From Candidatus Fimimorpha excrementavium (GTDB lineage: Bacteria; Bacillota; Clostridia; Lachnospirales; Lachnospiraceae): a stretch of 64,000 nt of DNA. The position numbers and the translations under genes are program-made. Numbering within the stretch: position 1 is the stretch's first letter; every line of letters starts with the position of its first letter. Under the pieces are notes generated by a model. That model was not told the origin of the DNA. It searched no databases and saw only the letters and a program-made list of their open reading frames with translations. The stretch lies in the NCBI GenBank assembly GCA_018710785.1, contig DVJD01000116.1:48524-112523 (forward strand), given 5' to 3'. This document shows positions 22,250-42,039 of the stretch, in pieces.

Positions 22250-24349
22250 CTAAATGGAGAAGAGAAGCTGATCGTAGGTCGGATAGGACAGATACTGATC
22301 AGGGATCAGCGCTTCTGCCTCATTGACTGCACTGCGGATGCGTTCCATGTCGGAAAGAACATTCTCATGGTAAGCCTTTGCCGTAAGAAGGGCATCATCC
22401 AAAGCTTCGGCTGCTTCCATATTCTGAAGAAGAGAAGCCAGATTGGAGGAAATTTCTGCCTGCAGGCTGCTCAGTGTGGTGATGAGCTCGGTGTCGTAGG
22501 CAAGGGGCATGCCTGGGATGAGGGTTTTCTTTTTCACAGCGGTATCGGCAATCTGTTCCACATAGGCAGATATGGACGGAAGGACTTCTTTTTTCAGCAT
22601 CTCTTCCAGTGTCTTGCCTTCGATATGGATGGTCTTTGAATAGTTTTCCAGAAGAATCTCATAGCGGGATGTGATTTCTTCTTTGGTAAACACACCGTGT
22701 CTGGTGAACAGTTCGATATTTTTTGGATCAATGAAATGTTCCAGAGCATCCGGCGTGGAAACCAGATTTGGAAGACCGCGGCGTTTTGCTTCTTCCACCC
22801 ATTCTTCTGTATAGCCATTCCCATTGAAAATAATCCGTTTGTGGCTAAGCAGGGTACTCTTTAAAAGGTCATGAATGGCAGCCGGAAGCTCTTCCTGTGA
22901 TACGGATTCCAGCTTTTCAGAAAACTGGCGAAGAACCTCTGCGACAGCTGTGTTTAATACGATATTGGGTGTCGATACAGAAGCAGAGGAACCAAGCATA
23001 CGGAACTCGAATTTGTTTCCGGTAAAAGCAAACGGTGAAGTACGGTTGCGGTCCGTGGTATCCTTTGTAAAATGCGGCAGCACATGGGCACCCGTTTCCA
23101 GCTGTTCTCTCTGGACGCCGTTGAAATACGTATCATTTTCTATGGAATCCATGACAGCCTGCAGTTCATCGCCCAAGAAGATGGAGACGATGGCCGGCGG
23201 CGCTTCATTGCCTCCCAGACGGTGATCGTTTCCGGCGCCGGCCACAGAGATACGCAGAAGATCCGCATAGTCATCCACTGCCTGGATGACAGCCATTAAA
23301 AAGATGAGAAACTGGGTGTTTTCACCTGGAGTTTTTCCCGGATCCAGCAGGTTTACTCCCGTGTTTGTGATGAGGGACCAGTTGTTATGTTTGCCGCTGC
23401 CGTTGATGCCTTCGAAGGGTTTTTCATGGAGAAGGCAGACAAATCCGTGTTTTCTGGCCACTTTACGCATCATTTCCATGGTAAGCTGATTGTGATCGAC
23501 AGCTACATTGCTGGTCTCGAATATGGGCGCCAGCTCGTGCTGCGCGGGAGCGACTTCATTGTGTTTGGTTTTTGCCGGAATTCCAAGCTTCCAAAGTTCT
23601 TTGTCCAGATCATGCATAAAGTCAGCGATCCTGGGCTTCAGAGCTCCAAAGTAATGGTCTTCCATTTCCTGTCCCTTGGGAGCCGCTGCGCCGAAAAGAG
23701 TCCGTCCGCAGAAGACCAGGTCCTTTCTCTTTTTGTACAGATCCCGTTCCACGATAAAATATTCCTGTTCCGGTCCCACAGTCGTATTCACACTGGTAAC
23801 ATCTGTGTTTCCCAAAAGGTGAAGAATACGTGTGGCCTCTTTGCTCAAAGTTTCCATGGAGCGCAGGAGCGGTGTTTTCTTATCCAAAACTTCCCCGCTG
23901 TAGGAACAGAACGCAGTGGGTATGTACAGGGTGTGATCTTTGATAAAAGCAGGAGATGTGGGATCCCATGCGGTGTATCCTCTGGCTTCAAAGGTGGCTC
24001 TCAGACCGCCGGATGGAAAACTGGAAGCATCGGGTTCACCTTTTACCAGCTCTTTTCCGGAAAAATCCATGATAATTTGACCGTCTCCTGTCGGGGAGAT
24101 AAAGCTGTCATGTTTTTCCGCTGTATAGCCGGTCATGGGCTGGAACCAATGGGTATAGTGGGTCGCTCCGTTTTCTACGGCCCATTCTTTCATGGCCACG
24201 GCCACGGCATTGGCCACATCCAATTCCAGATGGGTACCGTTTTCCATGGTTTTTTTGAGTGCTTTGTAAATATCTTTTGGTAATTTGGCCCGCATGACCT
24301 TATCATTAAATACAGAACTGCCGAATAATTCAGGAATATTAGATGCCAT
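22250..24349 (-). CDS. glnN: Glutamine synthetase type III
   Basis: 699 aa; VNTTVGPEQEYFIVERDLYKKRKDL, EVAPAQHELAPIFE, GSGKHNNWSLITNTGVNLLDPGKTPGENTQFL typical of GSIII. Confidence 0.96.
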   Translation of the reverse strand: MASNIPELFGSSVFNDKVMRAKLPKDIYKALKKTMENGTHLELDVANAVAVAMKEWAVENGATHYTHWFQPMTGYTAEKHDSFISPTGDGQIIMDFSGKELVKGEPDASSFPSGGLRATFEARGYTAWDPTSPAFIKDHTLYIPTAFCSYSGEVLDKKTPLLRSMETLSKEATRILHLLGNTDVTSVNTTVGPEQEYFIVERDLYKKRKDLVFCGRTLFGAAAPKGQEMEDHYFGALKPRIADFMHDLDKELWKLGIPAKTKHNEVAPAQHELAPIFETSNVAVDHNQLTMEMMRKVARKHGFVCLLHEKPFEGINGSGKHNNWSLITNTGVNLLDPGKTPGENTQFLIFLMAVIQAVDDYADLLRISVAGAGNDHRLGGNEAPPAIVSIFLGDELQAVMDSIENDTYFNGVQREQLETGAHVLPHFTKDTTDRNRTSPFAFTGNKFEFRMLGSSASVSTPNIVLNTAVAEVLRQFSEKLESVSQEELPAAIHDLLKSTLLSHKRIIFNGNGYTEEWVEEAKRRGLPNLVSTPDALEHFIDPKNIELFTRHGVFTKEEITSRYEILLENYSKTIHIEGKTLEEMLKKEVLPSISAYVEQIADTAVKKKTLIPGMPLAYDTELITTLSSLQAEISSNLASLLQNMEAAEALDDALLTAKAYHENVLSDMERIRSAVNEAEALIPDQYLSYPTYDQLLFSI

Positions 24350-24422
24350 AAACAGACACTCCTTTCAAATATGGATTCTTGGACAATGACCTTGCAAGGG
24401 AGCCGGAAAACCGGCAAAAGAA

Positions 24423-24457
24423 AAAGGCACCTTGGACCAATAATCCAAAGCGCCTTT
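24423..24457 (-). promoter_or_regulatory. Attenuator-like terminator hairpin in glnN leader
   Basis: Minus strand: gcAAAGGCGCTTTGGAttattggTCCAAGGTGCCTTTttc with U-tract, ~10 nt after predicted TSS. Confidence 0.8.
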
Positions 24458-24471
24458 GCTTTCTGTGAAGT

Positions 24472-24499
24472 AGTATACACGATTTTGGGGGATTGTCAA
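24472..24499 (-). promoter_or_regulatory. glnN promoter
   Basis: Minus strand TTGACA-N16-TATACT. Confidence 0.85.
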
Positions 24500-24548: not shown

Positions 24549-24577
24549 TTGACAAATCTGAAAAAAATATGGTATTT
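24549..24577 (+). promoter_or_regulatory. purF promoter
   Basis: TTGACA at 24549 followed at 17 bp by GTATTT; the -10 is weak. Confidence 0.6.
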
Positions 24578-24589
24578 CTTTATAGGAGC

Positions 24590-24629
24590 AAAGGGGCTTC
24601 GATTTTTCAGGGTCGAAGTCTCTTTTTTT
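24590..24629 (+). promoter_or_regulatory. Attenuator-like terminator hairpin in purF leader
   Basis: ggagcAAAGGGGCTTCGAtttttcagggTCGAAGTCTCTTTtttt. Confidence 0.82.
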
Positions 24630-24688
24630 ATTGAAAAGTCCTTTTGGAGACCACAGATGCTGTGCCAGAAGGCGGAAAAGAGGAAGAG

Positions 24689-26068
24689 ATGAGCGGAGAC
24701 AAGCTGAAAGAAGAATGTGGCGTATTTGGAATGTATGACAGGGACGGAAACAATGTGGTTCCCTCCATTTATTATGGACTGACAGCCCTTCAGCACAGGG
24801 GGCAGGAGGCCTGCGGGATGGCTGTATCGGATACAAGCGGGCCAAAAGGAAATATGAAGTACCACAAGGGGATGGGACTGGTCAGCGAAGGGATGAAGGA
24901 AGATGCGCTGAAGGGAATGAAAGGGAATCTGGGCATCGGCCATGTCCGTTATTCCACCACAGGAGCTTCCACCCCGGAAAATGCCCAGCCCCTGGTATTG
25001 TCCTATGTGAAAGGCTCTCTGGCCCTGGCACATAATGGAAACCTGGTCAACACAGAGGAACTGAGAAGAAAACTGGAAGAAGCAGGGGCCGTATTTCACA
25101 CGACGACAGATTCGGAGGTGATCGCCTATCACATTGCCAGGGAACGGGTTCGCACCGATACCGTGGAAGAGGCTGTGAAAAATACGGCAAAAAAAATAAG
25201 GGGCGCCTATGGACTGGTGATCATGAGCCCGCGCAAGCTGGTGGGGGTCAGGGATCCGTTGGGGTTAAAGCCGCTCTGCCTTGGCAGACGCGGAAATGCC
25301 TATGTCATTGCCTCGGAAAGCTGTGCGCTGGCCGCCGTGGGAGCCGAGTTTGTGCGGGATATACGGCCTGGTGAGATTGTCACGATTACAAAAGAGGAAA
25401 TCCGTTCTGATATGGGACTGGCACAGGAAACACATGCCCATTGTATTTTTGAATATATTTATTTTGCCCGTCTGGACAGCACCATGGACGGCATCAATAT
25501 TTATGACGCGCGGATCCGAGGAGGCAGGGCTTTGGCAAAAGCGTATCCGGCCGAGGCGGATGTGGTCTGCGGCGTACCCGATTCCGGCCTTGCCGCAGCC
25601 AGAGGATATGCGATGGAATCCGGTATTCCATTTGAACTGGCCTTTCACAAAAACAGTTATATTGGCAGGACTTTTATCAAACCGACCCAGGAGGAAAGGG
25701 AATCCAGCGTGCATATGAAACTGAGTATTTTGGAACCGGTGGTCAGGGGAAAACGGATCATACTGGTGGATGATTCCATCGTAAGGGGAACGACCATTGC
25801 CAATCTGATCCACATGCTGAAAAAGGCCGGAGCCAAGAGCGTCCATGTTAGGATCAGCGCACCTCCGTTTCTGCACCCCTGTTATTTTGGAACCGACGTG
25901 CCTTCCAATGACCAGCTGATTGCCGTATCCCATTCTCCGGAGGAAATCTGTCAGCTGATCGGGGCAGACTCCCTTGGCTATATGAAGCTTACGGATCTGC
26001 CGGATATGGTGGGAAATCTTCCCTACTGCAGTGCATGTTTTGACGGAAATTATCCCATGACGGTGTAA
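24689..26068 (+). CDS. purF: Amidophosphoribosyltransferase
   Basis: MSGDKLKEECGVFGMYDRDGNNVVPSIYYGLTALQHRGQEACGMAV ... VDDSIVRGTTIANLIHMLKKAGAKSVHVRISAPP. Confidence 0.97.
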   Translation: MSGDKLKEECGVFGMYDRDGNNVVPSIYYGLTALQHRGQEACGMAVSDTSGPKGNMKYHKGMGLVSEGMKEDALKGMKGNLGIGHVRYSTTGASTPENAQPLVLSYVKGSLALAHNGNLVNTEELRRKLEEAGAVFHTTTDSEVIAYHIARERVRTDTVEEAVKNTAKKIRGAYGLVIMSPRKLVGVRDPLGLKPLCLGRRGNAYVIASESCALAAVGAEFVRDIRPGEIVTITKEEIRSDMGLAQETHAHCIFEYIYFARLDSTMDGINIYDARIRGGRALAKAYPAEADVVCGVPDSGLAAARGYAMESGIPFELAFHKNSYIGRTFIKPTQEERESSVHMKLSILEPVVRGKRIILVDDSIVRGTTIANLIHMLKKAGAKSVHVRISAPPFLHPCYFGTDVPSNDQLIAVSHSPEEICQLIGADSLGYMKLTDLPDMVGNLPYCSACFDGNYPMTV

Positions 26069-26144
26069 AGCAGCCGTGCTTGACAAAACAGAAGAAACAA
26101 AAGAAGAATGAAAAAAATAGTTTTTAGGGATTTACAAAACGGAA

Positions 26145-26173
26145 AAAATGGTTTATAGTATACAAGATTTAAG
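26145..26173 (+). promoter_or_regulatory. pyrG promoter
   Basis: TTTACA-N17-TATAGT within gatttacaaaacggaaaaaatggtttatagtatacaag; coordinates to within a few bases. Confidence 0.7.
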
Positions 26174-26227
26174 TATCGCATCTGTCAACACAGAAACAGT
26201 TAAGACACAAATTTAAGAAACAACTGA

Positions 26228-28024
<1,797 letters not shown>

Positions 28025-28096
28025 TCCGTTTTCTCTGACTTGTGAATGTTTCGCAATTACCGAAAAAATAATGATAGGACAGAAAGGAAGAATGTT

Positions 28097-31000
28097 ATGG
28101 GAGCGATCAGAAGAGATACATATGCCGAAACGGGTTATTCGGGCTTGTACCGCCCGCAGTTTGAACATGACAATTGCGGGATCGGTGCCGTAGTCAGCAT
28201 CCGCGGGGAAAAATCACATAAAGCAGTGACGGATGCTCTGAAAATCGTGGAAAATCTGGAACACAGGGCAGGAAAAGACGCGGAAGGGAAAACCGGGGAC
28301 GGCGTGGGAATTCTTCTGCAGATCTCCCATCGATTCTTTTCCCGTGTCTGCGGTGAGCTGGGGATTTCCATCGGACAGGAGAGAGAATACGGCATCGCGC
28401 AGATTTTCTTTCCCCAGGATGAGAGAAAGCGCGGCCAGGCGAAAAAGATGTTTGAAATCATCGTGGAAAAGGAAGGCCTTTCTCTGCTTGGATGGAGAGA
28501 TGTGCCGGTTTGTCCGAAGGTTTTGGGACAGAAGGCACTGGAATGCATGCCCTGCATCATGCAGGCCTTTATAAAAAAGCCGGAAGAAGTGCAGAAGGGG
28601 CTGGACTTTGACCGCCGTCTTTATATTGCCAGACGGGAATTTGAACAGAGTACAGACAACACCTATGTGGTATCCATGAGCAGCCGAACCATCGTATACA
28701 AGGGAATGTTTTTGGTGGGACAGCTTCGGACCTTTTTCTCCGATCTTCAGGATCACGATTATGAGTCTGCCATCGCCATGGTCCACTCCCGTTTCAGTAC
28801 CAATACGAATCCCAGCTGGGAGCGGGCCCATCCCAACCGTTTTATGGTGCACAATGGAGAGATCAATACCATCCGCGGAAATGCCGATAAGATGCTGGCG
28901 AGGGAAGAGAATATGGAGTCTGTCCATCTGAAGGGACAGCTTCACAAAGTGCTCCCCGTCATCAACCGGGATGGCTCCGATTCGGCCATGCTGGATAATA
29001 CCCTGGAGTTTCTGGTGATGAGCGGCATGGATCTGCCTTTGGCCGCCATGATTACCATACCGGAACCATGGGACAATAATGACACCATATCCATGGGAAA
29101 ACGGGATTTTTATCAGTATTATGCCACCATGATGGAGCCATGGGATGGTCCTGCATCCATCCTCTTTTCCGACGGAGATGTGATGGGAGCGGTTCTGGAC
29201 AGAAACGGCCTGCGCCCTTCCAGATATTACATCACATCCGATGATATGCTGATCCTTTCTTCTGAGGTGGGGGTTCTGCCGGTTCCGGAAGAGAAGATTG
29301 TGTTAAAAGAACGTCTCCATCCGGGCAAAATGCTTTTGGTGGATACGGTGGGGAAACGGCTGATCGGCGACGATGAATTGAAAGAATACTACGCCGGAAA
29401 ACAGCCTTACGGCGAATGGCTGGACAGCAACCTTCTCAACTTAAAGGAAATCAAGATCCCGAATCTGCGTGTGGAAGAGTACGATGCGGCTAAGCGGGCG
29501 CGTCTGCAGAAAGCCTTCGGGTATACGTATGAGCAGTATCGGACCTCTATTTTGTCGCTGGCTATGAATGCCTCCGAAAGCATCCAGGCCATGGGTACGG
29601 ATATTCCGCTGGCCGTTCTGTCGGAAAATCACCGTCCGCTGTTTGATTATTTTAAGCAGATGTTTGCCCAGGTGACCAATCCGCCCATCGATGCCATCCG
29701 TGAAAAGATCGTCACCAGCACGGCTGTCTATGTGGGCAGGGACGGCAATCTTTTGGAGGAAAAATCGGAAAACTGTCAGGTACTGAAGATTCATAATCCG
29801 ATTCTGACCAATACGGATATGATGAAAATCAAACATATGAATCATCCGGGATTTCAGGTGGCTGTGGTATCTATCCTGTACTACAAGAGTACCAAGCTGA
29901 AGCGTGCCATGGACCGGCTGTTTGTGGAAGTGGATAAGGCATACCGGGACGGAGCCAATATTCTGGTGCTGTCTGACCGGGGCGTGGATGAAAATCACAT
30001 GGCGATCCCGTCTCTGCTGGCGGTGTCGGCCGTCCATCAGCACCTGGTGAAGACAAAGAAGAGGACCAGTCTGGGCATCATTCTGGAATCAGGAGAGCCG
30101 CGGGAAGTCCACCATTTTGCCACACTTCTCGGATACGGCGCCTGTGCGGTAAACCCGTATCTGGCCCAGGAAACCATCCGCGAGCTGATCGATAATCACA
30201 TGCTGGAAAAGGATTACTATGCGGCTGTGGATGATTATAACAAGGGAATCCTGGACGGTATCGTAAAGATTGCATCCAAGATGGGAATCTCCACCATTCA
30301 GTCCTATCAGGGTTCTCAGATCTTTGAGGCAGTGGGCATCTCCGATGAAGTGATTCAGGAATATTTCACGGGTACCGTCAGCCGGGTGGGAGGAATCACA
30401 CTGGAAGATATCGAAGAAGAAGTGGACCGTCTCCACTCCCAGGCCTTTGATCCTCTGGGATTGAACAGTGATCTGACCTTAAATAGTGTGGGAAATCACA
30501 AAATGCGAAGCGAAGGGGAGAAACACCGCTACAATCCGGGAACCATTCACCTGCTGCAGGAATCCACGAAACGCGGCGATTATGCCATGTTCCGGGAGTA
30601 CACCAGCCTGGTGGATAAGGAAAACACAGGTAATCTTCGAAGTCTTTTTTCCTTCGTCTATGCCGAGCATCCTCTGCCTTTGGAGGAAGTGGAACCGGTG
30701 GATTCCATCGTGAAGCGGTTTAAGACAGGGGCCATGTCCTACGGTTCCATCTCGAAAGAAGCCCATGAGACTCTGGCCATCGCCATGAATCATCTCCATG
30801 GAAAGTCCAACACAGGAGAAGGAGGAGAGAGTGAGGAGCGTCTGGATTCGGCCGGAACAAATGATGACAGGTGTTCGGCCATCAAACAGGTGGCCAGCGG
30901 CCGTTTCGGCGTGACCAGCCGATATTTGGTCAGCGCCAGAGAAATTCAGATTAAGATGGCCCAGGGCGCAAAACCGGGAGAAGGCGGCCATCTTCCGGCC

Positions 31001-32671
31001 AAAAAAGTCTATCCGTGGATTGCCAAAACCCGTCATTCGACGCCTGGCGTCAGCCTGATTTCCCCGCCGCCGCATCATGACATTTATTCCATCGAGGACT
31101 TGGCGGAGCTGATCTATGATTTGAAAAACGCAAATAAGTATGCAGATATTTCCGTAAAATTGGTTTCCGAGGCCGGTGTGGGAACGATCGCGGCCGGTGT
31201 GGCAAAGGCAGGAGCACAGATTATCCTGATCGCAGGTCATGATGGCGGGACTGGAGCGGCTCCGGGCAGTTCCATCCACAATGCGGGGCTTCCCTGGGAA
31301 CTGGGTCTGGCGGAAGCCCATCAGACACTGCTTCAGAATGGACTGAGAAACCGGGTCCGCATTGAGACGGACGGAAAACTGATGAGCGGCCGGGATGTGG
31401 CCATAGCCGCCATCCTGGGTGCGGAAGAGTTTGGATTCGCCACGGTTCCCCTGGTCACCATGGGATGCGTCATGATGCGCGTCTGCAACCTGGATACCTG
31501 TCCGGTGGGCGTGGCCACGCAGAATCCGGAACTTCGCAAGCGTTTCCGCGGCAAACCGGAATATGTGGAAAACTTTATGCGTTTTGTGGCACAGGAGCTG
31601 CGGGAATATATGGCAAAACTGGGTGTGCGCACAGTGGATGAGATGGTGGGCCGGACGGATCTTCTGCAGATTTCCGGGGATGCGAAACAGCCTCACCACG
31701 GAAAACTGGACCTTAGTGCCATCCTGCAGAACCATTATCCGAAGGAAAAAGCAGTATTTGATCCCAAGGCAGTATATGACTTTAAGCTGGATCAGACGCT
31801 GGATGAAAGAGTTCTGCTGAAAGCCTGCAGACCGGCTCTGGAGAAAAAAGAACCGGTGACCGTATCTTTGGAAGTGGGAAATACCGACCGGGCATTTGGT
31901 ACAATCCTCGGCTCCGAGATTACGCGCCGTCATAAAAACGGACTTCCTGAGGACACGATTCGCATTCAGTGCAAGGGAGCCGGCGGCCAGAGCTTCGGCG
32001 CATTTATTCCCAAGGGACTTACCCTGGAACTGGAAGGCGACTGCAATGATTACCTCGGAAAAGGACTCTCCGGCGGAAAGCTGGTGATTCGGATGCCGAA
32101 GCATGCATCCTACCGCTCCGATGAAAATATCATCGTCGGCAATGTGGCCTTATACGGAGCCACCAGCGGCACCGCATTTATCAACGGAGTGGCCGGAGAG
32201 CGTTTCGCTGTGCGAAATTCCGGCGCCAATGCCGTAGTGGAAGGTGTGGGCGAACACGGATGCGAGTATATGACAGGCGGCCGTGTGGTGGTTCTCGGAA
32301 AGACGGGAAAGAATTTTGCCGCCGGTATGAGCGGAGGAATTGCCTACGTGCTGGATGAGCATAATACGCTGTATAAGAATTTGAATAAATCCATGATTCT
32401 CATTGAAAAAGTGGATAATAAATACGATGAGCAGGAATTAAAGCAGCTGATTGAATCCCATGTGAAGGCCACGGGATCAGAAAAAGGAAAAGAAATTCTT
32501 GACAGGTTTGATGACTATGTGACAAAATTTAAAAAGCTGATTCCGAAGGAATATAAAAAGATGATGGTCTTGAGCGCGAAACTGGAGGAAAAGGGGCTGA
32601 CCGGTGAACAGGCACAGATGGAAGCCTTTTATGAGAGCATTCGTTCTTCTGAGAACGGAAAAAAGCAGTAA
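28097..32671 (+). CDS. gltB: Glutamate synthase large subunit
   Basis: FEHDNCGIGAVVSI N-terminal nucleophile region; central GEGGESEER...GAKPGEGGHLPAKKV; GXGXG C-terminal domain. Confidence 0.97.
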   Translation: MGAIRRDTYAETGYSGLYRPQFEHDNCGIGAVVSIRGEKSHKAVTDALKIVENLEHRAGKDAEGKTGDGVGILLQISHRFFSRVCGELGISIGQEREYGIAQIFFPQDERKRGQAKKMFEIIVEKEGLSLLGWRDVPVCPKVLGQKALECMPCIMQAFIKKPEEVQKGLDFDRRLYIARREFEQSTDNTYVVSMSSRTIVYKGMFLVGQLRTFFSDLQDHDYESAIAMVHSRFSTNTNPSWERAHPNRFMVHNGEINTIRGNADKMLAREENMESVHLKGQLHKVLPVINRDGSDSAMLDNTLEFLVMSGMDLPLAAMITIPEPWDNNDTISMGKRDFYQYYATMMEPWDGPASILFSDGDVMGAVLDRNGLRPSRYYITSDDMLILSSEVGVLPVPEEKIVLKERLHPGKMLLVDTVGKRLIGDDELKEYYAGKQPYGEWLDSNLLNLKEIKIPNLRVEEYDAAKRARLQKAFGYTYEQYRTSILSLAMNASESIQAMGTDIPLAVLSENHRPLFDYFKQMFAQVTNPPIDAIREKIVTSTAVYVGRDGNLLEEKSENCQVLKIHNPILTNTDMMKIKHMNHPGFQVAVVSILYYKSTKLKRAMDRLFVEVDKAYRDGANILVLSDRGVDENHMAIPSLLAVSAVHQHLVKTKKRTSLGIILESGEPREVHHFATLLGYGACAVNPYLAQETIRELIDNHMLEKDYYAAVDDYNKGILDGIVKIASKMGISTIQSYQGSQIFEAVGISDEVIQEYFTGTVSRVGGITLEDIEEEVDRLHSQAFDPLGLNSDLTLNSVGNHKMRSEGEKHRYNPGTIHLLQESTKRGDYAMFREYTSLVDKENTGNLRSLFSFVYAEHPLPLEEVEPVDSIVKRFKTGAMSYGSISKEAHETLAIAMNHLHGKSNTGEGGESEERLDSAGTNDDRCSAIKQVASGRFGVTSRYLVSAREIQIKMAQGAKPGEGGHLPAKKVYPWIAKTRHSTPGVSLISPPPHHDIYSIEDLAELIYDLKNANKYADISVKLVSEAGVGTIAAGVAKAGAQIILIAGHDGGTGAAPGSSIHNAGLPWELGLAEAHQTLLQNGLRNRVRIETDGKLMSGRDVAIAAILGAEEFGFATVPLVTMGCVMMRVCNLDTCPVGVATQNPELRKRFRGKPEYVENFMRFVAQELREYMAKLGVRTVDEMVGRTDLLQISGDAKQPHHGKLDLSAILQNHYPKEKAVFDPKAVYDFKLDQTLDERVLLKACRPALEKKEPVTVSLEVGNTDRAFGTILGSEITRRHKNGLPEDTIRIQCKGAGGQSFGAFIPKGLTLELEGDCNDYLGKGLSGGKLVIRMPKHASYRSDENIIVGNVALYGATSGTAFINGVAGERFAVRNSGANAVVEGVGEHGCEYMTGGRVVVLGKTGKNFAAGMSGGIAYVLDEHNTLYKNLNKSMILIEKVDNKYDEQELKQLIESHVKATGSEKGKEILDRFDDYVTKFKKLIPKEYKKMMVLSAKLEEKGLTGEQAQMEAFYESIRSSENGKKQ

Positions 32672-32683
32672 AGGAGGAGAATC

Positions 32684-34168
32684 ATGGGAAAACCAACAGG
32701 ATTTTTAGAATATGAGAGAGAGACGGCTCTGGTGCAGGAACCAAATGAGCGGATTCGTCATTTTCATGAATTTCGGACTCCTTTAAATGTGGAAAAGCAG
32801 CAGCGGCAGGGAGCTAGATGCATGGACTGCGGGGTTCCGTTCTGCCAGTACGGGGGAATGATAAGCGGCATGGCGTCCGGATGCCCTCTGCACAACCTGG
32901 TTCCCGAGATGAATGACCTGGTGTATATGGGAAACTGGCGGCAGGCATACCTGCGTCTCTCCAAGACCCATTGCTTTCCGGAGTTTACCTCCAGGGTCTG
33001 CCCGGCCCTGTGTGAGGCGGCCTGTACCTGCGGTTTGGATGGAAAAGCGGTGTCCACGAAAGAAAATGAAAGAGCCGTGATTGAAACCGCATTCCGGGAG
33101 GGCTGGGTAACGCCCCAGGTCCCCCGGGTGCGCACCGGGAAAAAAGTGGCAGTGGTCGGCAGCGGACCGGCCGGGATGGCGGCGGCCATGCTTTTAAACC
33201 GAAGAGGACACAGCGTGACGGTTTTTGAGAGAAGTGACCGCGTCGGAGGATTGCTGCGGTATGGAATCCCCAATATGAAACTGGAAAAATCCATCCTGGA
33301 TCGGAGGATCCGGCTGATGGAAGAAGAGGGTGTCTGCTTTCAGACCGGCGTAAATGTGGGAAAAGATTTAAAAGCAGAGGAACTCTTAAAAGAATATGAC
33401 CGGGTGCTTCTGGCCTGCGGCGCGTCCCATCCCAGGGATATCGCAGTGCCGGGACGGGATGCGAAGGGGATCCTTTTTGCAGTGGATTTTCTTGGAACTG
33501 TGACAAAGCGCCTGCTGGACAGTGATTTTTCCGATGTACCCTATGAGATGGCAAAGGGAAAACATGTCCTTGTCATCGGCGGAGGAGACACGGGAAATGA
33601 CTGTGTGGGGACAGCCATCCGCCTGGGTGCAAAATCAGTAACCCAGCTGGAGATGATGCCAAAGCTGCCAGAGCAGCGGACCGAGGAAAATCCGTGGCCC
33701 GAGTGGCCGCGGGTGCTGAAAACCGACTATGGCCAGGAGGAAGCCATCGCCGTATTCGGAAAGGACCCCAGGGTTTATCAGACGACCGTAACCGAATTTC
33801 TGAAAGATAAAAAAGGAAATGTCTGCAAAGCGAAGATCATCCGCCTGGAACCGAAAAAAGATGAGACCTCCGGCAGAATGCTCATGGCGCCGGTGGAGGG
33901 CAGCGAGCAGGTGATTGCAGCAGACCTGGTACTGATTGCCGCCGGATTTTTGGGAAGTGAAAGTTATGTGGCGGACGCGTTTAAAACGGAATTGGATCCG
34001 CGTACCAATGTGAAGACATCAAACAACGGATACGAGACAACGACGGAGCACGTATTTGCTGCGGGCGATATGCGGAGGGGACAGTCCCTTGTCGTATGGG
34101 CCATCCGGGAAGGAGAAGAAGCAGCCCGTGCCATTGATCGTTCCCTGATGGGATATACCAATTTGTAG
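32684..34168 (+). CDS. gltD: Glutamate synthase small subunit
   Basis: MGKPTGFLEYERE...RCMDCGVPFCQYG...GCPLHNLVPEMNDLVYMGNWRQAY; FAD/NAD motifs. Confidence 0.97.
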   Translation: MGKPTGFLEYERETALVQEPNERIRHFHEFRTPLNVEKQQRQGARCMDCGVPFCQYGGMISGMASGCPLHNLVPEMNDLVYMGNWRQAYLRLSKTHCFPEFTSRVCPALCEAACTCGLDGKAVSTKENERAVIETAFREGWVTPQVPRVRTGKKVAVVGSGPAGMAAAMLLNRRGHSVTVFERSDRVGGLLRYGIPNMKLEKSILDRRIRLMEEEGVCFQTGVNVGKDLKAEELLKEYDRVLLACGASHPRDIAVPGRDAKGILFAVDFLGTVTKRLLDSDFSDVPYEMAKGKHVLVIGGGDTGNDCVGTAIRLGAKSVTQLEMMPKLPEQRTEENPWPEWPRVLKTDYGQEEAIAVFGKDPRVYQTTVTEFLKDKKGNVCKAKIIRLEPKKDETSGRMLMAPVEGSEQVIAADLVLIAAGFLGSESYVADAFKTELDPRTNVKTSNNGYETTTEHVFAAGDMRRGQSLVVWAIREGEEAARAIDRSLMGYTNL

Positions 34169-34181
34169 GAGGAAAACTGAC

Positions 34182-35276
34182 ATGAACGCATTTCTGATTT
34201 TGGAGAACGGCCGGGTATTTTCCGGCAGAAGCATAGGAGAGGGAGGAGAGTGGATCAGTGAAATCGTCTTCAATACCTCCATGACCGGGTATCTGGAGGT
34301 GCTGACCGATCCCTCCTATGCCGGACAGACCGTCTGCATGACGTATCCGCTGATTGGAAACTACGGCATCTGCGAGGAAGATGCAGAGTCGGAACGGCCG
34401 TGGGTGAGCGGCTTTCTGGTCCGGGAGCTGTCCCGGATCCCCAGCAATTTCAGAAGCCGGGAAACCATTCAGTCCTATTTAAAGCGCCATGGGATACCAG
34501 GAATCGAGGGCATCGATACCAGAGCTTTGACCAGACAGCTTCGGGATGCCGGAACGATGAATGGTATGATTACCACCGATGAGAACTATAATCTGCCGGA
34601 GGTTCTCGAAAAAATCCGTGCCTATCGCGTGGAAAAAGCGGTGGAGCGTGTGACCTGCAGAAAGAAAACCGTCCTTCCGGGAGACGGATACCGCGTGGCG
34701 CTCATGGACTTGGGGGCAAAGAGAAACATTGCCCGCTCTCTCCAGAATCTGGGATGCCAGGTGACCATATGGCCCGCCAGTACCAGCGCAGAAGAAATCC
34801 TGGCGGATCAGCCGGATGGCATTCTGGTATCCAACGGACCGGGAGATCCCAAGGAATGTACCTATGTCATTGAACAGCTGAAACAGTTATACGCATCGAA
34901 CGTACCGATCTTGGCCATCTGTCTGGGACACCAGCTGATGGCTCTTGCCATGGGCGGAGATACCCACCGGTTAAAATACGGCCATCGGGGAGGAAATCAC
35001 CCGGTGAAGGATCTTCTGACCGGAAAAGTATCCATCACATCCCAGAATCACGGCTATGTGGTGGACACAAGCCAGATGGATCCCAAAATCGCCGTACCGG
35101 CGTTTGTCAATGTCAATGACGGTACCAATGAAGGAATCCGCTATGTGGGAAAGAACATCCTGACGGTGCAGTTCCATCCGGAAGCCTGCCCCGGCCCCAG
35201 GGACTCTGCGTACCTGTTTGCTACATTTATGGAAATGATGGGAGGAAAAAAACATGCCGAAGAATCCGCAAATTAA
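34182..35276 (+). CDS. carA: Carbamoyl-phosphate synthase small subunit
   Basis: MNAFLILENGRVFSGRSIGEGGEWISEIVFNTSMTGYLEVLTDPSYAGQ; GATase motif ILAICLGHQLMALAMGG. Confidence 0.97.
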   Translation: MNAFLILENGRVFSGRSIGEGGEWISEIVFNTSMTGYLEVLTDPSYAGQTVCMTYPLIGNYGICEEDAESERPWVSGFLVRELSRIPSNFRSRETIQSYLKRHGIPGIEGIDTRALTRQLRDAGTMNGMITTDENYNLPEVLEKIRAYRVEKAVERVTCRKKTVLPGDGYRVALMDLGAKRNIARSLQNLGCQVTIWPASTSAEEILADQPDGILVSNGPGDPKECTYVIEQLKQLYASNVPILAICLGHQLMALAMGGDTHRLKYGHRGGNHPVKDLLTGKVSITSQNHGYVVDTSQMDPKIAVPAFVNVNDGTNEGIRYVGKNILTVQFHPEACPGPRDSAYLFATFMEMMGGKKHAEESAN

Positions 35277-38200
35277 AAAAGTACTGATGCTTGGAAGCGG
35301 TCCGATCGTCATCGGACAGGCAGCGGAGTTTGATTATGCCGGGACTCAGGCCTGCCGTGCGCTGAAAGAAGAAGGAATCGAAGTGGTGCTTTTAAACTCC
35401 AATCCGGCTACGATTATGACGGATCCGGATATCGCCGATAAAGTCTATATTGAACCGCTCACCGTTTCGGTGGTGGAGCAGCTGATTGATAAAGAAAAAC
35501 CGGACAGCGTTCTGCCGACCCTGGGCGGACAGGCAGGCTTAAATCTGGCCATGGAACTGGAGGAAAGCGGATTCTTAAAAAGCCGGGGCGTGCGCCTGAT
35601 CGGTACGACAGCAGCCACCATTAAAAAGGCGGAAGACCGCCAGGAGTTTAAAACAACCATGGAAAAGATCCATGAGCCGGTGGCGCCGTCTCTGGTGGTG
35701 ACCGATGTGGAAAGCGGCCGCGCTTTTGCAGAACAAATCGGATACCCGGTGGTGCTTCGGCCGGCCTACACCCTGGGCGGAAGCGGCGGAGGCATCGCGT
35801 CCGACGAAGAAGAACTCATGGAGATTCTGGCCAACGGACTTCGACTCTCCCGAGTGGGGGAAGTTTTGGTGGAGCGATGCATCGCCGGATGGAAGGAAAT
35901 CGAATACGAAGTCATGCGTGACAGCGCGGGAAACTGCATCACCGTCTGCAATATGGAAAACATTGATCCGGTCGGGGTGCATACCGGGGACAGCATGGTG
36001 GTGGCCCCCTCACAGACGCTGAGTGATAAAGAGTATCAGATGCTTCGAAGCTCTGCTTTGAATATTATCGCAGAGCTGGGAATCACCGGCGGATGCAACG
36101 TCCAGTACGCATTGAATCCGGATAGTTTCGAATATTGTGTCATCGAGGTAAACCCGAGAGTCAGCCGTTCTTCTGCTCTGGCCAGCAAAGCCACGGGATA
36201 TCCCATCGCGAAAGTGGCAGCCAAGATCGCCCTGGGCTATACCCTGGATGAGATCAAAAATGCGGTGACGGGAAAGACCTATGCCAGCTTTGAACCCATG
36301 CTGGATTACTGCGTGGTAAAAATGCCCCGCCTGCCGTTTGATAAATTTATCCATGCAAAGCGTACCCTGACGACCCAGATGAAGGCCACCGGGGAAGTGA
36401 TGAGCATCTGCATGAATTTTGAGGGCGCCCTGATGAAAGCCATCCGTTCTCTGGAACAGCATACAGACAGCCTGCTGTCCTATGATTTTTCCAAATTGTC
36501 GGAGGAAGAATTCAGCGAACAGCTGAAGAAGGTGGATGATCTGCGCCTTTGGAGAATTGCGGAGGCGGTGAGAAGAGGGTGGTCCCTGGAGGACATCCAC
36601 GAAGAAACGAAAATCGATCTCTGGTTTCTCGATAAAATCGCCTCTCTGGTGGAGATGGAGAAGAGACTGAAGACAGAAAAATTGGATGAAGAACTCCTTC
36701 GGGAGGCAAAGCGCATGGAATTTCCGGATTCCGTGATTGCGCGCCTTGGAAATATCAGTGAAAAAGAAGTGGGCGCGCTGCGGAATCAGTGGGGCATCCA
36801 TGCTTCCTACCGTATGGTGGATACATGTGCAGCCGAGTTTGAAGCGGAATCTGCCTACTACTATTCGGTATATGGAGGAGAAAATGAGGTCAGCCCCGAC
36901 AGCAAAAAGAAAAAGGTGCTGATTCTGGGCAGCGGTCCCATCCGAATCGGCCAGGGCATCGAATTTGACTTCTGTTCCGTCCACTGTGCATGGGCCTTTG
37001 AAAAGGAAGGATACGAAACCATCATTGTGAATAACAATCCGGAGACGGTCAGCACGGATTTTGACATTGCCTCCCGCCTGTATTTTGAGCCTCTGACCAG
37101 GGAAGATGTGGAAAATATTGTGCGTCTGGAAAAACCGGACGGCGCGGTGGTGCAGTTTGGCGGCCAGACAGCCATCAAACTGACGAAGGATCTGATGGAG
37201 ATGGGCGTGCCGATTTTGGGAACTTCTGCCGATGATGTGGATGCCGCGGAAGATCGGGAGCGTTTTGATGAGATTCTGGAGCAGTGCCGCATACCAAGAC
37301 CCAAGGGCGAGACCGTATTCAGTGTCGAAGAAGCCAAGGCGGCAGCGGCAAGGCTGGGGTATCCGGTTTTGGTTCGTCCATCCTATGTGCTGGGCGGCCA
37401 GGGCATGCAGATTGCCATCAATGATGAGGATGTGGAGCAGTATATCGGTGTCATCAACCGAATCGCCCAGGAACATCCCATCCTGGTGGATAAGTATCTG
37501 AGAGGAAAAGAAATCGAAGTGGATGCTGTCTGCGACGGGGAGGATATTCTGATCCCTGGTATCATGGAACATATTGAGCGGGCGGGAATCCATTCCGGCG
37601 ACAGTATTTCGGTGTATCCGGCCCGTTCCATCAGCGAAGGGGTACAGGAAACGATTGTGGAGTATACCAAGCGGCTGGCCAGGGCGCTTCACGTCATCGG
37701 ACTGATTAATATTCAGTTTATCGTATGCGGGGAAGAAGTATATGTCATCGAAGTCAACCCGCGCTCCAGCCGTACGGTCCCCTATATCAGCAAGGTGACC
37801 GGTATCCCCATCGTGCCCCTGGCAGCGAAGGTGATCCTGGGAGAAACGATCAAAGATATGGGCTATCAGCCGGGACTTCAGCCGAAATCCCGCTACTGTG
37901 CAGTGAAGATGCCAGTCTTTTCCTTCGAGAAAATCCGGGGAGCCGATGTGGACATGGGACCGGAGATGAAGTCTACGGGAGAATGCCTCGGCATCGCCGA
38001 ACACTTTACGGAAGCCCTGTATAAAGCATTTATGGGGGCAGGCATGCGCCTTCCGCGCTATAAAAATATGGTGATCACTGTGCGGGATGAGGATCAGGAA
38101 GAGGTCAAAGGCATCGCCCGTTCCTTTGCTGATATGGGATATACCATCTACGCGACAAGCGGGACAGCCCGGGCTCTTTCACAGGCAGGACTTTCGGTGA

Positions 38201-38457
38201 AAGTCGTCAGAAAGATGGAACAGGAATCGCCCAATCTGCTGGATCTGATTCTGGATCATCATCTGGATCTCATCATTGACATCCCCCACCGCGGAGCGGA
38301 ACATTCCAAAGACGGATTCCTGATCCGAAGAAACGCCATCGAGACGGGCGTACACGTCATCACCTCGCTGGATACGGCGGCGGCGCTGGCAAAAAGTATG
38401 AAATCAGCAGGAAAACAAAACCTCTCACTGGTGGACATCGGTACGATTTTGCGTTGA
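35254..38457 (+). CDS. carB: Carbamoyl-phosphate synthase large subunit
   Basis: MPKNPQIKKVLMLGSGPIVIGQAAEFDYAGTQACRALKEEG; duplicated ATP-grasp halves. Confidence 0.98.
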   Translation: MPKNPQIKKVLMLGSGPIVIGQAAEFDYAGTQACRALKEEGIEVVLLNSNPATIMTDPDIADKVYIEPLTVSVVEQLIDKEKPDSVLPTLGGQAGLNLAMELEESGFLKSRGVRLIGTTAATIKKAEDRQEFKTTMEKIHEPVAPSLVVTDVESGRAFAEQIGYPVVLRPAYTLGGSGGGIASDEEELMEILANGLRLSRVGEVLVERCIAGWKEIEYEVMRDSAGNCITVCNMENIDPVGVHTGDSMVVAPSQTLSDKEYQMLRSSALNIIAELGITGGCNVQYALNPDSFEYCVIEVNPRVSRSSALASKATGYPIAKVAAKIALGYTLDEIKNAVTGKTYASFEPMLDYCVVKMPRLPFDKFIHAKRTLTTQMKATGEVMSICMNFEGALMKAIRSLEQHTDSLLSYDFSKLSEEEFSEQLKKVDDLRLWRIAEAVRRGWSLEDIHEETKIDLWFLDKIASLVEMEKRLKTEKLDEELLREAKRMEFPDSVIARLGNISEKEVGALRNQWGIHASYRMVDTCAAEFEAESAYYYSVYGGENEVSPDSKKKKVLILGSGPIRIGQGIEFDFCSVHCAWAFEKEGYETIIVNNNPETVSTDFDIASRLYFEPLTREDVENIVRLEKPDGAVVQFGGQTAIKLTKDLMEMGVPILGTSADDVDAAEDRERFDEILEQCRIPRPKGETVFSVEEAKAAAARLGYPVLVRPSYVLGGQGMQIAINDEDVEQYIGVINRIAQEHPILVDKYLRGKEIEVDAVCDGEDILIPGIMEHIERAGIHSGDSISVYPARSISEGVQETIVEYTKRLARALHVIGLINIQFIVCGEEVYVIEVNPRSSRTVPYISKVTGIPIVPLAAKVILGETIKDMGYQPGLQPKSRYCAVKMPVFSFEKIRGADVDMGPEMKSTGECLGIAEHFTEALYKAFMGAGMRLPRYKNMVITVRDEDQEEVKGIARSFADMGYTIYATSGTARALSQAGLSVKVVRKMEQESPNLLDLILDHHLDLIIDIPHRGAEHSKDGFLIRRNAIETGVHVITSLDTAAALAKSMKSAGKQNLSLVDIGTILR

Positions 38458-38482
38458 CAAACGGGTGGGGCATTGCTATAAT
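38454..38482 (+). promoter_or_regulatory. glnA promoter
   Basis: Consensus TTGACA-N17-TATAAT; -35 overlaps the carB stop codon. Confidence 0.92.
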
Positions 38483-38495
38483 AATGTCCAGGAGC

Positions 38496-38540
38496 AAGGG
38501 CGTTCTTCTGATGGGATATCATTGGAAGTGCGCCCTTTTT
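38496..38540 (+). promoter_or_regulatory. Attenuator-like terminator hairpin in glnA leader
   Basis: ggagcAAGGGCGttCTTCtgatgggatatcattgGAAGtgCGCCCTTttt. Confidence 0.85.
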
Positions 38541-38612
38541 ACGTGGTCCCATCCCGCGGTTTGGCGGGAGCAAACAGAGAACATGCGAAATATAAAAGAA
38601 AAGAGGAATACT

Positions 38613-39968
38613 ATGGAACAATTGACGAAGGAAGATGTACTTCGGCTGGTGGAAGAAGATGATGTGGAATTTATCCGCCTTCAGTTTACTGATATGTTCG
38701 GAATCATGAAAAATATTGCGATCACAGCCAGAGAATTGCCAAAGGCCCTGAATAACGAATGCATCATTGACGGAAGTTTCATTGATGGGATGGAAGGGGA
38801 AGAGGTTACGGATATGTATCTGCATCCGGATCTCAGTACGTTTGCCATTCTGCCGTGGCGGCCGCAGCAGGGGAAGGTGGCGAGACTTCTCTGTGATATT
38901 TACCGCCCTGACCAGACGCCATATCCCATCAGTTCCCGCTATGTACTGGACCGTGTCTCCAGGGAGGCAAAAGAAAAGGGGTATGAGATTTTAGTGGATC
39001 CGGAATGTGAGTTTTTCCTGTTCCATACCGATGATGACGGGATGCCCACCACAGTCACCCATGAAAGGGCAGGCTACTTGGATTTAAGCCCGGTGGACCT
39101 GGGAGAAAATGCCCGGAGGGATATTGTGCTGACCTTGGAAGAGATGGGATTTGAGATTACATCATCCCACCATGAGATCGCACCGGCCCAGCATGAAATT
39201 GATTTTGATTATGCGTCGGCTTTCCAGATGGCAGATCAGATTATGACGTTTAAAGTGGCCGTGCGCACGGTGGCAAAGCGTCATGGACTGCATGCCACCT
39301 TCATGCCAAAGCCCATTGCGGGAGTGAATGGTTCCGGTATGCACATCAATCTGGCTGTATTCAAAGATGGAAGAAACATTCTGCAAAAGGAAGATGACAG
39401 TCTGGGACTGAGCAAAGAAGGGTATTATTTTATCGGCGGTCTTTTGGCCCACAGCAAAGAAATGGCAGCCATCACAAATCCTCTGGTAAATTCCTATAAG
39501 AGACTGGTTCCGGGATTTGAAGCGCCCACGGAAGTGACCTGGTCCGAGTACAGCAAAAATTCTCTGATTCGTCTGCCCATGGGACGAAGAGGAAAAAACG
39601 GAGGCGGACAGGAGACGGGAACGCCGCTGGTTCAAAATAAGATTGAGCTGAGAAGTCCGGATGCTTCTGCCAACCCCTACCTGGTGTTTGCCGTCTGCAT
39701 TGCAGCGGGACTCCACGGGATTCAAAATAAGATCGATCCGGCCTGCTTTTTTAAGAATAAGTCGCCACGGACCGATGAGACGGGATTTGAACGCCTTCCG
39801 CAGAGCCTGAAAGAGGCCATCGATATCATGGAAGAAAGCAAATGGATGAAAGAAGTTTTGGGCGCAGAGTTTTTTGAAAAATATCTGGCAGCCAAGAAGA
39901 AGGAGTGGGAAACCTATTCCAGACAGGTATCGAATTGGGAACTGGAAGAATATCTGTATCGATTCTGA
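38613..39968 (+). CDS. glnA: Glutamine synthetase type I
   Basis: MEQLTKEDVLRLVEEDDVEFIRLQFTDMFGIMKNIAIT; ITSSHHEIAPAQHEIDF; HATFMPKPIAGVNGSGMHIN. Confidence 0.97.
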   Translation: MEQLTKEDVLRLVEEDDVEFIRLQFTDMFGIMKNIAITARELPKALNNECIIDGSFIDGMEGEEVTDMYLHPDLSTFAILPWRPQQGKVARLLCDIYRPDQTPYPISSRYVLDRVSREAKEKGYEILVDPECEFFLFHTDDDGMPTTVTHERAGYLDLSPVDLGENARRDIVLTLEEMGFEITSSHHEIAPAQHEIDFDYASAFQMADQIMTFKVAVRTVAKRHGLHATFMPKPIAGVNGSGMHINLAVFKDGRNILQKEDDSLGLSKEGYYFIGGLLAHSKEMAAITNPLVNSYKRLVPGFEAPTEVTWSEYSKNSLIRLPMGRRGKNGGGQETGTPLVQNKIELRSPDASANPYLVFAVCIAAGLHGIQNKIDPACFFKNKSPRTDETGFERLPQSLKEAIDIMEESKWMKEVLGAEFFEKYLAAKKKEWETYSRQVSNWELEEYLYRF

Positions 39969-40008: not shown

Positions 40009-40563
40009 ATGAACAGCAGTATCATAGTAGTATTCCCCAATATGGATGATGCAAAGAAAATCTGCGGGATTTTAGTGCGTCATGGATTTTCCGTAGCGGG
40101 TGTGTTTAACACAGCGGCTCATGCACTGGCAGGGGCATCGGAACTGGATGGCGGGATTGTCATCAGCGGATGTAAACTTTCGGATATGGGGTATGCAGAT
40201 CTGAGGGAATATCTGCCAAAAACCTTTGAACTTCTGGTAATCGGTTCGCCCAAAATGCTTTCGTCTGTGAACGGAACGGTTTTGACGATCCAGACACCGA
40301 TGAAATCGTCCGATTTATTAAATACGGTGGAAATGGTGCTGGCACAGCAGGAGAGAAAGCGGAAAAAGGAAAAAAAGAAGCCGAAGCCCCGCTCCTGGAA
40401 AGAACAGAATTATATTAACAATGCAAAGAATCTTCTGATGGAGAGAAACCATCTGTCAGAGGAAGAAGCCTTTCGGTATATTCAGAAAAGCAGCATGGAT
40501 TCCGGGACCAATATGGTGGAGACCGCCCAGATGATTTTGATGCTGATGATCTATGAAGAATAA
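40009..40563 (+). CDS. Response-regulator-like protein with C-terminal ANTAR domain
   Basis: Degenerate receiver-like N-terminus and C-terminal NNAKNLLMERNHLSEEEAFRYIQKSSMDSGTNMVETAQMIL, matching the ANTAR pattern. Confidence 0.87.
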   Translation: MNSSIIVVFPNMDDAKKICGILVRHGFSVAGVFNTAAHALAGASELDGGIVISGCKLSDMGYADLREYLPKTFELLVIGSPKMLSSVNGTVLTIQTPMKSSDLLNTVEMVLAQQERKRKKEKKKPKPRSWKEQNYINNAKNLLMERNHLSEEEAFRYIQKSSMDSGTNMVETAQMILMLMIYEE

Positions 40564-40573
40564 CGGGATGGAG

Positions 40574-40607
40574 AAGGGGAAGCCGCAGAATTCGCAGCTT
40601 CCCCTTT
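40574..40607 (+). terminator. Terminator after the ANTAR gene
   Basis: aaggggaagccgc agaattc gcagcttccccttt. Confidence 0.75.
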
Positions 40608-40911: not shown

Positions 40912-42039
40912 ATGGTGTTAAAAAAGGTTATGCAAAAGGCAAAACAGGATGTGGTTTTGACTGCGGCGTGGGTACTGGCCGTGGGATCGGCTTTTTTGAT
41001 CCCTCCGGATCAGCAATATATTGAATATTTGGATGGGAAGACGCTGGGCCTTTTGTTCTGTCTGATGACAATCATGGGCGGACTGCAGAATCTGGGATTT
41101 TTTACAAGAATCGGAAGCCGCTTTATCCGCTGCGTAAAGAGTACGGTATCTCTGAGCGCCAGTTTGATCTTTCTGTGCTTTTTTTCCAGCATGGTGATTA
41201 CCAATGACGTGGCGCTGATTACCTTTGTGCCGTTTACCATGGTGATTCTTTCCATGGTGGAAAAGAAGGAATATATGGTTCCCATCGTGACGATGCAGAC
41301 CATAGCCGCGAATCTGGGGAGTATGGTGACTCCCATCGGCAATCCGCAGAATCTGTATCTCTACTCCAGGATGGATCTGGGACTGTTTCCCTTTATGGGC
41401 ATTATGCTTCCATATGCAGTGGTGACGGGAGGGATGCTGGCATTGTTTTTAGCAATGCAGAAGAAAGAAAAGATACGTCATGTGGAAGTGGTTTTGCAGG
41501 AACAGATTCGCAAGCCTGCGAAAGAGTGGATGTACGGAGGATTATTTTTGCTGTCAGTGGGTGTGATTGCCGGTGTGCTTCCGATTTCAGCGGTGTTTGT
41601 GATTACGGTTCTGGTGACGGCTTGCTTTGACCGAACGGCTTTTCGGAAGGTGGATTATGGTCTGCTGCTTACGTTTATCGGTTTTTTCATATTTATTGGC
41701 AATATGAAGCGTATCCCGCAGTTTTCTTCCCTTCTCTCGTCCTTCCTTCAGGGAAACGAGGTGGTGACCGCCGTGCTGACCAGTCAGGTGATCAGTAATG
41801 TGCCAAGCGCTCTTTTGCTGTCCGGATTCACGGATCAGACCAGAGAATTGGTGATCGGAACGAATCTGGGCGGATTGGGGACGCTGATCGCATCCATGGC
41901 AAGCCTGATTTCCTACAAACAGGTGGTGCGGGAAGCGCCGCAGCAGAAAGGGAGATATCTGGCCTATTTTACAGGTGCCAATCTGATTTTTCTGGCGGTC
42001 CTGCTGGGACAATATTTCCTTATGAATTCCATTATGTAA
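40912..42039 (+). CDS. SLC13/ArsB/NhaD-like anion or ion permease
   Basis: Hydrophobic protein with MVITNDVALITFVPF and VISNVPSALLLSGF, typical of the ArsB/NhaD/SLC13 superfamily. Confidence 0.85.
   Translation: MVLKKVMQKAKQDVVLTAAWVLAVGSAFLIPPDQQYIEYLDGKTLGLLFCLMTIMGGLQNLGFFTRIGSRFIRCVKSTVSLSASLIFLCFFSSMVITNDVALITFVPFTMVILSMVEKKEYMVPIVTMQTIAANLGSMVTPIGNPQNLYLYSRMDLGLFPFMGIMLPYAVVTGGMLALFLAMQKKEKIRHVEVVLQEQIRKPAKEWMYGGLFLLSVGVIAGVLPISAVFVITVLVTACFDRTAFRKVDYGLLLTFIGFFIFIGNMKRIPQFSSLLSSFLQGNEVVTAVLTSQVISNVPSALLLSGFTDQTRELVIGTNLGGLGTLIASMASLISYKQVVREAPQQKGRYLAYFTGANLIFLAVLLGQYFLMNSIM

Follow-up and report, generated by a model that had tools for sequence, protein, structure and literature searches.

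The window, i.e., the whole stretch of 64,000 nucleotides analysed here, derives from contig DVJD01000116.1 of Candidatus Fimimorpha excrementavium, a member of the Lachnospiraceae. It carries, in this order, glnN (on the minus strand), purF, pyrG, gltB, gltD, carA, carB, glnA and a gene for an ANTAR-domain protein. The gene glnN encodes a type III glutamine synthetase (22250–24349, minus strand; Pfam GSIII_N, 4e-82). All further genes of the block lie on the plus strand: purF for amidophosphoribosyltransferase (24689–26068; Pfam GATase_7 and Pribosyltran), pyrG for CTP synthase (26414–28024; Pfam CTP_synth_N, 9e-127), gltB and gltD for the glutamate synthase subunits (28097–34168; Pfam), carA and carB for the carbamoyl-phosphate synthase subunits (34182–38457; carA by Pfam, carB from its sequence and its location behind carA), glnA for glutamine synthetase (38613–39968; Pfam Gln-synt_N/C) and the ANTAR gene (40009–40563), whose product of 184 amino acids is a NitR-like protein combining an ANTAR domain with a receiver fold that lacks the phosphorylation residues.

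The spacing of the genes points to two longer transcription units. From pyrG to carA the gaps measure 72, 12 and 13 bases, respectively, and carA overlaps carB. Since the gaps are this short and a search of the pyrG–gltB gap for a strong forward promoter or a terminator found neither, pyrG-gltBD-carAB probably forms a single unit. Only 40 nt, free of a terminator, separate glnA from the ANTAR gene, and for this reason the two genes are probably cotranscribed as one unit that ends near a probable terminator read from the sequence (GGGGAAGC...GCTTCCCCTTT; 40576–40607, plus strand). The gene after this unit (40915–42039) codes for a CitMHS-type transporter, which also adjoins the ANTAR gene in two close relatives (L144 and L148).

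The preliminary description of this DNA had recognized an ANTAR pattern at the C-terminus of the 40009–40563 protein and had placed its gene next to glnA, and both observations held. Pfam assigned residues 132–177 to the ANTAR domain PF03861 (E = 5.5e-16; 58.5 bits, cut-off 27.3), and the domain was present in 50 of 50 homologues. A weak Pfam match to DacZ_T (24.3 bits, below the cut-off of 27) was set aside. The genome, which is about 98% complete, contains a single ANTAR gene, namely this one. At 77 of 80 related loci, mostly from Lachnospiraceae, a same-strand glnA lies immediately upstream of the ANTAR gene; at two of the remaining three loci the contig ends within glnA, and at the third the contig is too short. 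Counted by genome, this NitR-like linkage was found in at least 28 of the 30 ANTAR-bearing genomes of the order.

The leaders of glnA, glnN, purF and pyrG each contain a short hairpin with a hexaloop bearing A at position 1 and G at position 4 (A1/G4), and in all four this hairpin overlaps the 5' arm of an intrinsic terminator. The glnA promoter matches the consensus at 12 of 12 positions (TTGACA-N17-TATAAT with TG before the second hexamer; 38454–38482, plus strand) and is conserved in glnA leaders of other species. It is followed by the hairpin AGGAGC[AAGGGC]GTTCTT (loop in brackets; 38490–38507, plus strand), the proposed ANTAR site and antiterminator, which was found by a structure-aware scan and shows covariation across the family, and by a terminator whose 5' arm starts inside the hexaloop (38496–38541, plus strand; folding z-score −5.0). 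Upstream of glnN, on the minus strand, a promoter matching the consensus at 11 of 12 positions (TTGACA-N16-TATACT; 24472–24499) precedes the hairpin AAAGC[AAAGGC]GCTTT (24447–24462; structure-aware scan) and a terminator identified by covariance model and folding (24415–24457). The purF promoter has a weak second hexamer (TTGACA-N18-TATTTC; 24549–24578, plus strand); the purF hairpin GGAGC[AAAGGG]GCTTC (24585–24600, plus strand; scan) recurs with altered stems in four further ANTAR genomes, and its terminator (24590–24632, plus strand) was again identified by covariance model and folding. Finally, the pyrG leader carries the hairpin CTGAC[AAAGGC]GTCAG (26224–26239, plus strand; scan), present in four other ANTAR genomes, in one of them with a wholly different stem, and a terminator (26229–26291, plus strand; folding z-score −5.35) that would gate pyrG, gltB, gltD, carA and carB. 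Glutamine-consuming genes, i.e., purF, pyrG and probably carAB (24549–38457), share this type of attenuator with the genes of ammonia assimilation.

Since the loop and the 3' stem of each hairpin form the start of the terminator 5' arm, hairpin and terminator are mutually exclusive. Folding of the first bases alone gave the hairpin, whereas the whole leader folded into the terminator; the z-scores of the four leaders lay between −4.4 and −5.4. Their hexaloop-plus-terminator scores ranged from 18 to 20; in 150 dinucleotide shuffles of the window, a total of four matches reached at least 15, the best one 16.5. An Rfam search of the window found no known riboswitch and no matching family. The published 13-base P2 consensus, applied in loosened form to the whole genome, yielded 21 matches as compared to 17 for the reversed pattern, and the P2 pattern alone is therefore uninformative. 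By inspection, the P2 matches accompanied by a promoter and a terminator were those of glnN, purF and glnA, while the pyrG leader was missed by this pattern and found by the structure-aware scan. A further hexaloop, GCAGC[AAAGGC]GTTGG at position 59632 of the window, has a weaker terminator-like partner (score 10).

The combination known from ANTAR targets, an A1/G4 hexaloop on a short stem overlapping an intrinsic terminator, is not confined to the window. It occurs ahead of glnA at 49 of 77 homologous loci, where hairpin and terminator each show compensatory changes. About one third of the glnA loci do not have the leader hairpin, and at least some of these have gltD or another gene directly upstream. 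A covariance model was built on 42 glnA leaders from other genomes, with the window sequence left out. In this alignment, all cells of the hairpin helix (100%) were paired, and 11 double (two-sided) changes were counted in it; the overlapping terminator helix was paired in 92% of cells and had 94 double changes over nine pairs. Pairing of the terminator helix collapsed when it was slid by one column. Applied to the window, the model ranked the glnA leader first (52.8 bits), followed by glnN (21.6 bits, E = 0.0067) and purF (16.1 bits, E = 0.14); the pyrG leader was weak (E = 2.2). The hairpin was found in the purF and pyrG leaders of five genomes each, all of them ANTAR-bearing: the stems vary (CTGAC/GTCAG versus GAAGC/GCTTC), whereas the loop is always AAAGGC or AAAGGG.

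In 41 relatives, the model matched the leaders of glnA, glnN, gltB, amtB, asnB, gdhA and carA, and additionally those of an archaeal-type glutamate synthase gene and of a gene for a transporter substrate-binding protein. In the source genome, the genome-wide search with the model gave glnA and, beyond it, nothing but a chance terminator pair; as the model is tuned to glnA terminators, the regulon may exceed the genes listed here.

The number of hexaloops per leader differs from that of the systems studied so far. The leaders bound by EutV, NasR and AmiR have two hexaloops, and antitermination by EutV requires both at a set distance (PMC3369931, PMC8934654). The minimal ANTAR site has been redefined as one hexaloop; antitermination by a single hexaloop has been proven for no antiterminator, and the question was left open (PMC8934654). 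In the leaders analysed here, the distance from the −10 box to the loop had a median of 12 nt, with all but four distances between 5 and 17 nt (65 of 74 leaders, i.e., those with a good promoter call). The hairpin starts within a few bases of the transcript start predicted from the promoter consensus in about 60 of 74 leaders, and in the window the glnA, glnN and purF hairpins lie at the predicted 5' end of the transcript. Because the predicted start is at or just before the hairpin, no room is left for a transcribed second (P1) hexaloop ahead of it. In the 100 bases upstream, 3 of 74 leaders had a P1-like hairpin as compared to 7.5 expected from shuffles, which preserved base composition only. 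The remaining 71 of 74 leaders are without a P1-like hairpin upstream, where the promoter is in the way, and a single hairpin is likewise seen ahead of glnA in other orders of the class. The dual hexaloop (P1 plus P2) is not a defining feature of the ANTAR protein family.

Two related leaders look dual, the gltB leader of L126 with GTC[AATGGA]GAC 44 nt upstream and the glnN leader of L120 with GGGC[AATGGG]GTCC; single and dual forms thus coexist. At pyrG, the leader is longer and the clearest promoter call is some 70 nt upstream, so that a hairpin position at the 5' end is not clear-cut for this gene, although a search for a P1-like hairpin found none. Together with the dependence of EutV on both hairpins, these cases would suit a conventional dual-hairpin ANTAR system in which the second hexaloop was overlooked, either since transcription starts further upstream, e.g., by readthrough from carB into glnA, or since P1 departs from the A1/G4 pattern. 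Such a system is improbable in view of the near-perfect TTGACA-N17-TATAAT promoter at a fixed 10–16 nt before the hairpin in most glnA leaders and of the P1-like hairpins being rarer upstream than in shuffled sequences.

The distribution of the leader motif followed that of the ANTAR gene. At E ≤ 0.01, the motif was found in 20 of 30 genomes with an ANTAR gene and in 1 of 11 genomes without (Fisher p = 0.0014). The single exception, a match at glnN in G030, is missing the full hairpin stem. Apparent matches in the ANTAR-free genomes G023, G030 and G040 were rejected as weak or as having no proper hairpin. Hairpins in purF and pyrG leaders were absent from the genomes without ANTAR. Two ANTAR-free genomes of the same genus gave no match to pyrG either, for which reason they may simply be missing the region. 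The preliminary description had proposed that the ANTAR protein acts on the attenuators of this block. Comparison strongly supports such an action: the genome has one ANTAR gene, four leaders carry the hexaloop, the structures covary, and the motif co-occurs with the gene.

With regard to RNA contacts of the protein, the alignment to EutV shows the following: E151, K140 and M163 are invariant and are the counterparts of EutV E160, K149 and M172, and position 155, aligned to the aromatic Y164 of EutV, is Y, F or H. The RNA-contact residues R142, K143, K147, R175 and R177 of EutV showed no conservation in the family. K143 and K147 of EutV make their loop contacts from the second chain, and it may be speculated that the loss of these cross-chain contacts and the loss of P1 reflect a different mode of binding. 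Non-conservation of several contact residues, RNA binding by the ANTAR protein being a proposal only, and the glnN match in G030, a genome without a detected ANTAR gene, are what could be cited for the attenuators being served by another factor (an RNA-binding protein, a small RNA or a metabolite), with the ANTAR protein regulating other targets or only glnA. This explanation is highly improbable. It would have to accommodate a loop that stays constant at A1 and G4 while the stems change freely, a geometry of hexaloop and terminator like that of known ANTAR targets, and the co-occurrence with the sole ANTAR gene; moreover, the window has no Rfam riboswitch, and the G030 match has no full hairpin stem.

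The preliminary description had further called the N-terminus receiver-like without an obvious phospho-acceptor context and had suggested that it may sense something other than phosphorylation. An AlphaFold2 model, computed from an alignment with 50 relatives (mean pLDDT 91), showed a receiver fold, then a long helix forming a coiled coil and then a three-helix ANTAR domain; EutV, Rv1626, FixJ and AmiR were among the top fold matches in the PDB. The Pfam receiver model did not match the 40009–40563 protein and matched only 5 of 50 homologues. The phosphorylation residues were read off an alignment to EutV and 81 homologues. The phospho-acceptor aspartate of β3 is replaced by G, S or A in 81 of 81 aligned family members, the acid pair of β1 is replaced (LPK in the family), and the lysine position of β5 is mostly M, T or Y. 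No histidine kinase gene was found among the neighbouring open reading frames, as had been noted before. Thus, the hallmarks of a two-component response regulator, i.e., acid pair, phospho-acceptor aspartate, lysine and an adjoining cognate kinase, are absent, and a receiver fold without phosphorylation residues, as in AmiR, is what remains. By this alignment, the N-terminal domain qualifies as a pseudo-receiver across the family, which supports the idea of a signal other than phosphorylation. Varying remnants of the phosphorylation site are retained in glnA-linked ANTAR proteins from other orders of the class (L173–L201), which suggests that the receiver function may have been lost gradually. 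The preserved receiver fold and the residues kept in some of the more distant proteins, e.g., L175, leave a very small probability that phosphorylation of the receiver persists, through a kinase encoded elsewhere or on a different residue, set against a β3 aspartate in 0 of 81 family members and the additional loss of the β1 and β5 residues.

Taken together, the 40009–40563 protein is best read as a NitR-type ANTAR antiterminator of nitrogen-assimilation genes that acts via a single hairpin in most leaders and is controlled by something other than phosphorylation; we assign this reading a probability of about 0.82. We infer the following course. When active, the ANTAR domain would bind one A1/G4 hexaloop hairpin in the nascent leader RNA of glnA, glnN, purF or pyrG. 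The bound hairpin would be held closed, the loop and 3' stem would be unavailable as the terminator 5' arm, and the terminator would be blocked. RNA polymerase would then read through into glnA, glnN, purF and pyrG-gltBD-carAB, and readthrough past glnA into the ANTAR gene itself would provide positive autoregulation. In most leaders, one hairpin at or near the transcript start would suffice, with no P1 hairpin upstream. Activity would be set by a partner or ligand at the pseudo-receiver. That the 5' hairpin mainly stabilizes the mRNA and the terminators are constitutive dampers without regulated antitermination is hardly credible. Stem-loops at the 5' end can protect messages, and the hairpin does lie at the predicted 5' end, but protection calls for a stem and not for an invariant hexaloop, and the terminator overlap, the double covariation and the linkage to the ANTAR gene would be left unaccounted for.

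Several points count against the NitR-type reading: the hairpin is missing at about one third of the glnA loci, the pyrG leader is weak by the model, several of the EutV contacts are not conserved, and EutV itself depends on two hairpins. In addition, no physiological reason is evident for grouping purF, pyrG and carAB, whose products consume glutamine, with genes that scavenge nitrogen.

Among known systems, NitR of Clostridium saccharobutylicum comes closest. It is described as an ANTAR regulator of the glnA/glt cluster, an antiterminator that induces GS/GOGAT on nitrogen limitation (Stutz et al. 2007, as cited in PMC6316151), and a similar link between ANTAR and nitrogen was drawn for C. 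thermocellum (PMC4676874). As far as these descriptions of NitR go, both it and the present protein are ANTAR proteins linked to GS/GOGAT genes, whereas the reach proposed here adds glnN, purF and pyrG, and the leader RNA element is identified and conserved. EutV, the ethanolamine regulator of Enterococcus faecalis and the best match in the PDB, shares the receiver fold, the coiled coil, the ANTAR domain and the A1/G4 hexaloop overlapping a terminator. However, EutV receives its phosphoryl group from the kinase EutW and depends on P1 and P2 at a set spacing, whereas the present protein has no phosphorylation site and its leaders mostly have one hexaloop. AmiR, the amidase regulator of Pseudomonas aeruginosa, likewise combines a pseudo-receiver with ANTAR and is controlled by its partner AmiC instead of a kinase; no AmiC-like gene adjoins 40009–40563, and the AmiR leader differs in having two hairpins. 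ANTAR RNA elements fronting nitrogen genes, as in the present leaders, were predicted by Ramesh et al. 2012 before genes for glutamate/glutamine synthase, ammonium transport and other nitrogen functions (PMC3369931). Their search required a dual-hairpin motif, and single-hairpin leaders would therefore not fit.

With regard to the signal, no match to the PII family was found in the source genome, while 13 of 14 control genomes matched; nitrogen sensing must therefore take another route. Since glnA is the constant neighbour of the ANTAR gene, glutamine synthetase is the obvious candidate for a partner of the pseudo-receiver, in analogy to the pair of AmiC and AmiR and to TnrA. The linkage thus offers a concrete, testable guess on the signal. 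Glutamine synthetase controls TnrA in Bacillus (PMC6316151), and the ANTAR protein could likewise read the state of glutamine synthetase; this likeness is a proposed analogy only, as is the contact between glutamine synthetase and the ANTAR protein, and TnrA differs in binding DNA, the ANTAR protein RNA. An extension of the NitR-type reading, unlikely as it stands, would see here a form of ANTAR antitermination that is widespread, needs just one hairpin where the transcript begins and is run by a pseudo-receiver protein held off by feedback-inhibited glutamine synthetase from the same transcript. If true, ANTAR control read from glutamine synthetase would mirror, at the level of RNA, the TnrA control of Bacillus; some of the bacteria concerned, including the present one, lack PII.

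The general idea is already known: PMC6316151 and PMC4676874 give accounts of NitR, encoded beside glnA in Clostridium, as a regulator of this kind. Relative to the literature, the primary NitR paper aside, what appears to be new is the placement of a single hairpin at the 5' end, the wide occurrence of this arrangement and the extension to purF, pyrG and carAB; part of the findings on the single hairpin and on purF, pyrG and carAB may already be contained in the primary NitR work. The leaders, conserved in many Lachnospiraceae and other Clostridia, are natural test cases for antitermination by a single hexaloop, being very short, tractable RNAs. They point to a nitrogen circuit of gut bacteria that would join ammonia assimilation with glutamine-consuming nucleotide synthesis, here without PII.

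Variants with G at the first loop position, e.g., GAAC[GAAGGC]GTTC, were seen near position 1501 in L119, L120 and L127 (reverse strand), and one of them precedes a gene for a LuxR-type regulator. These variants suggest that A1 may be replaceable, or they may be chance matches.
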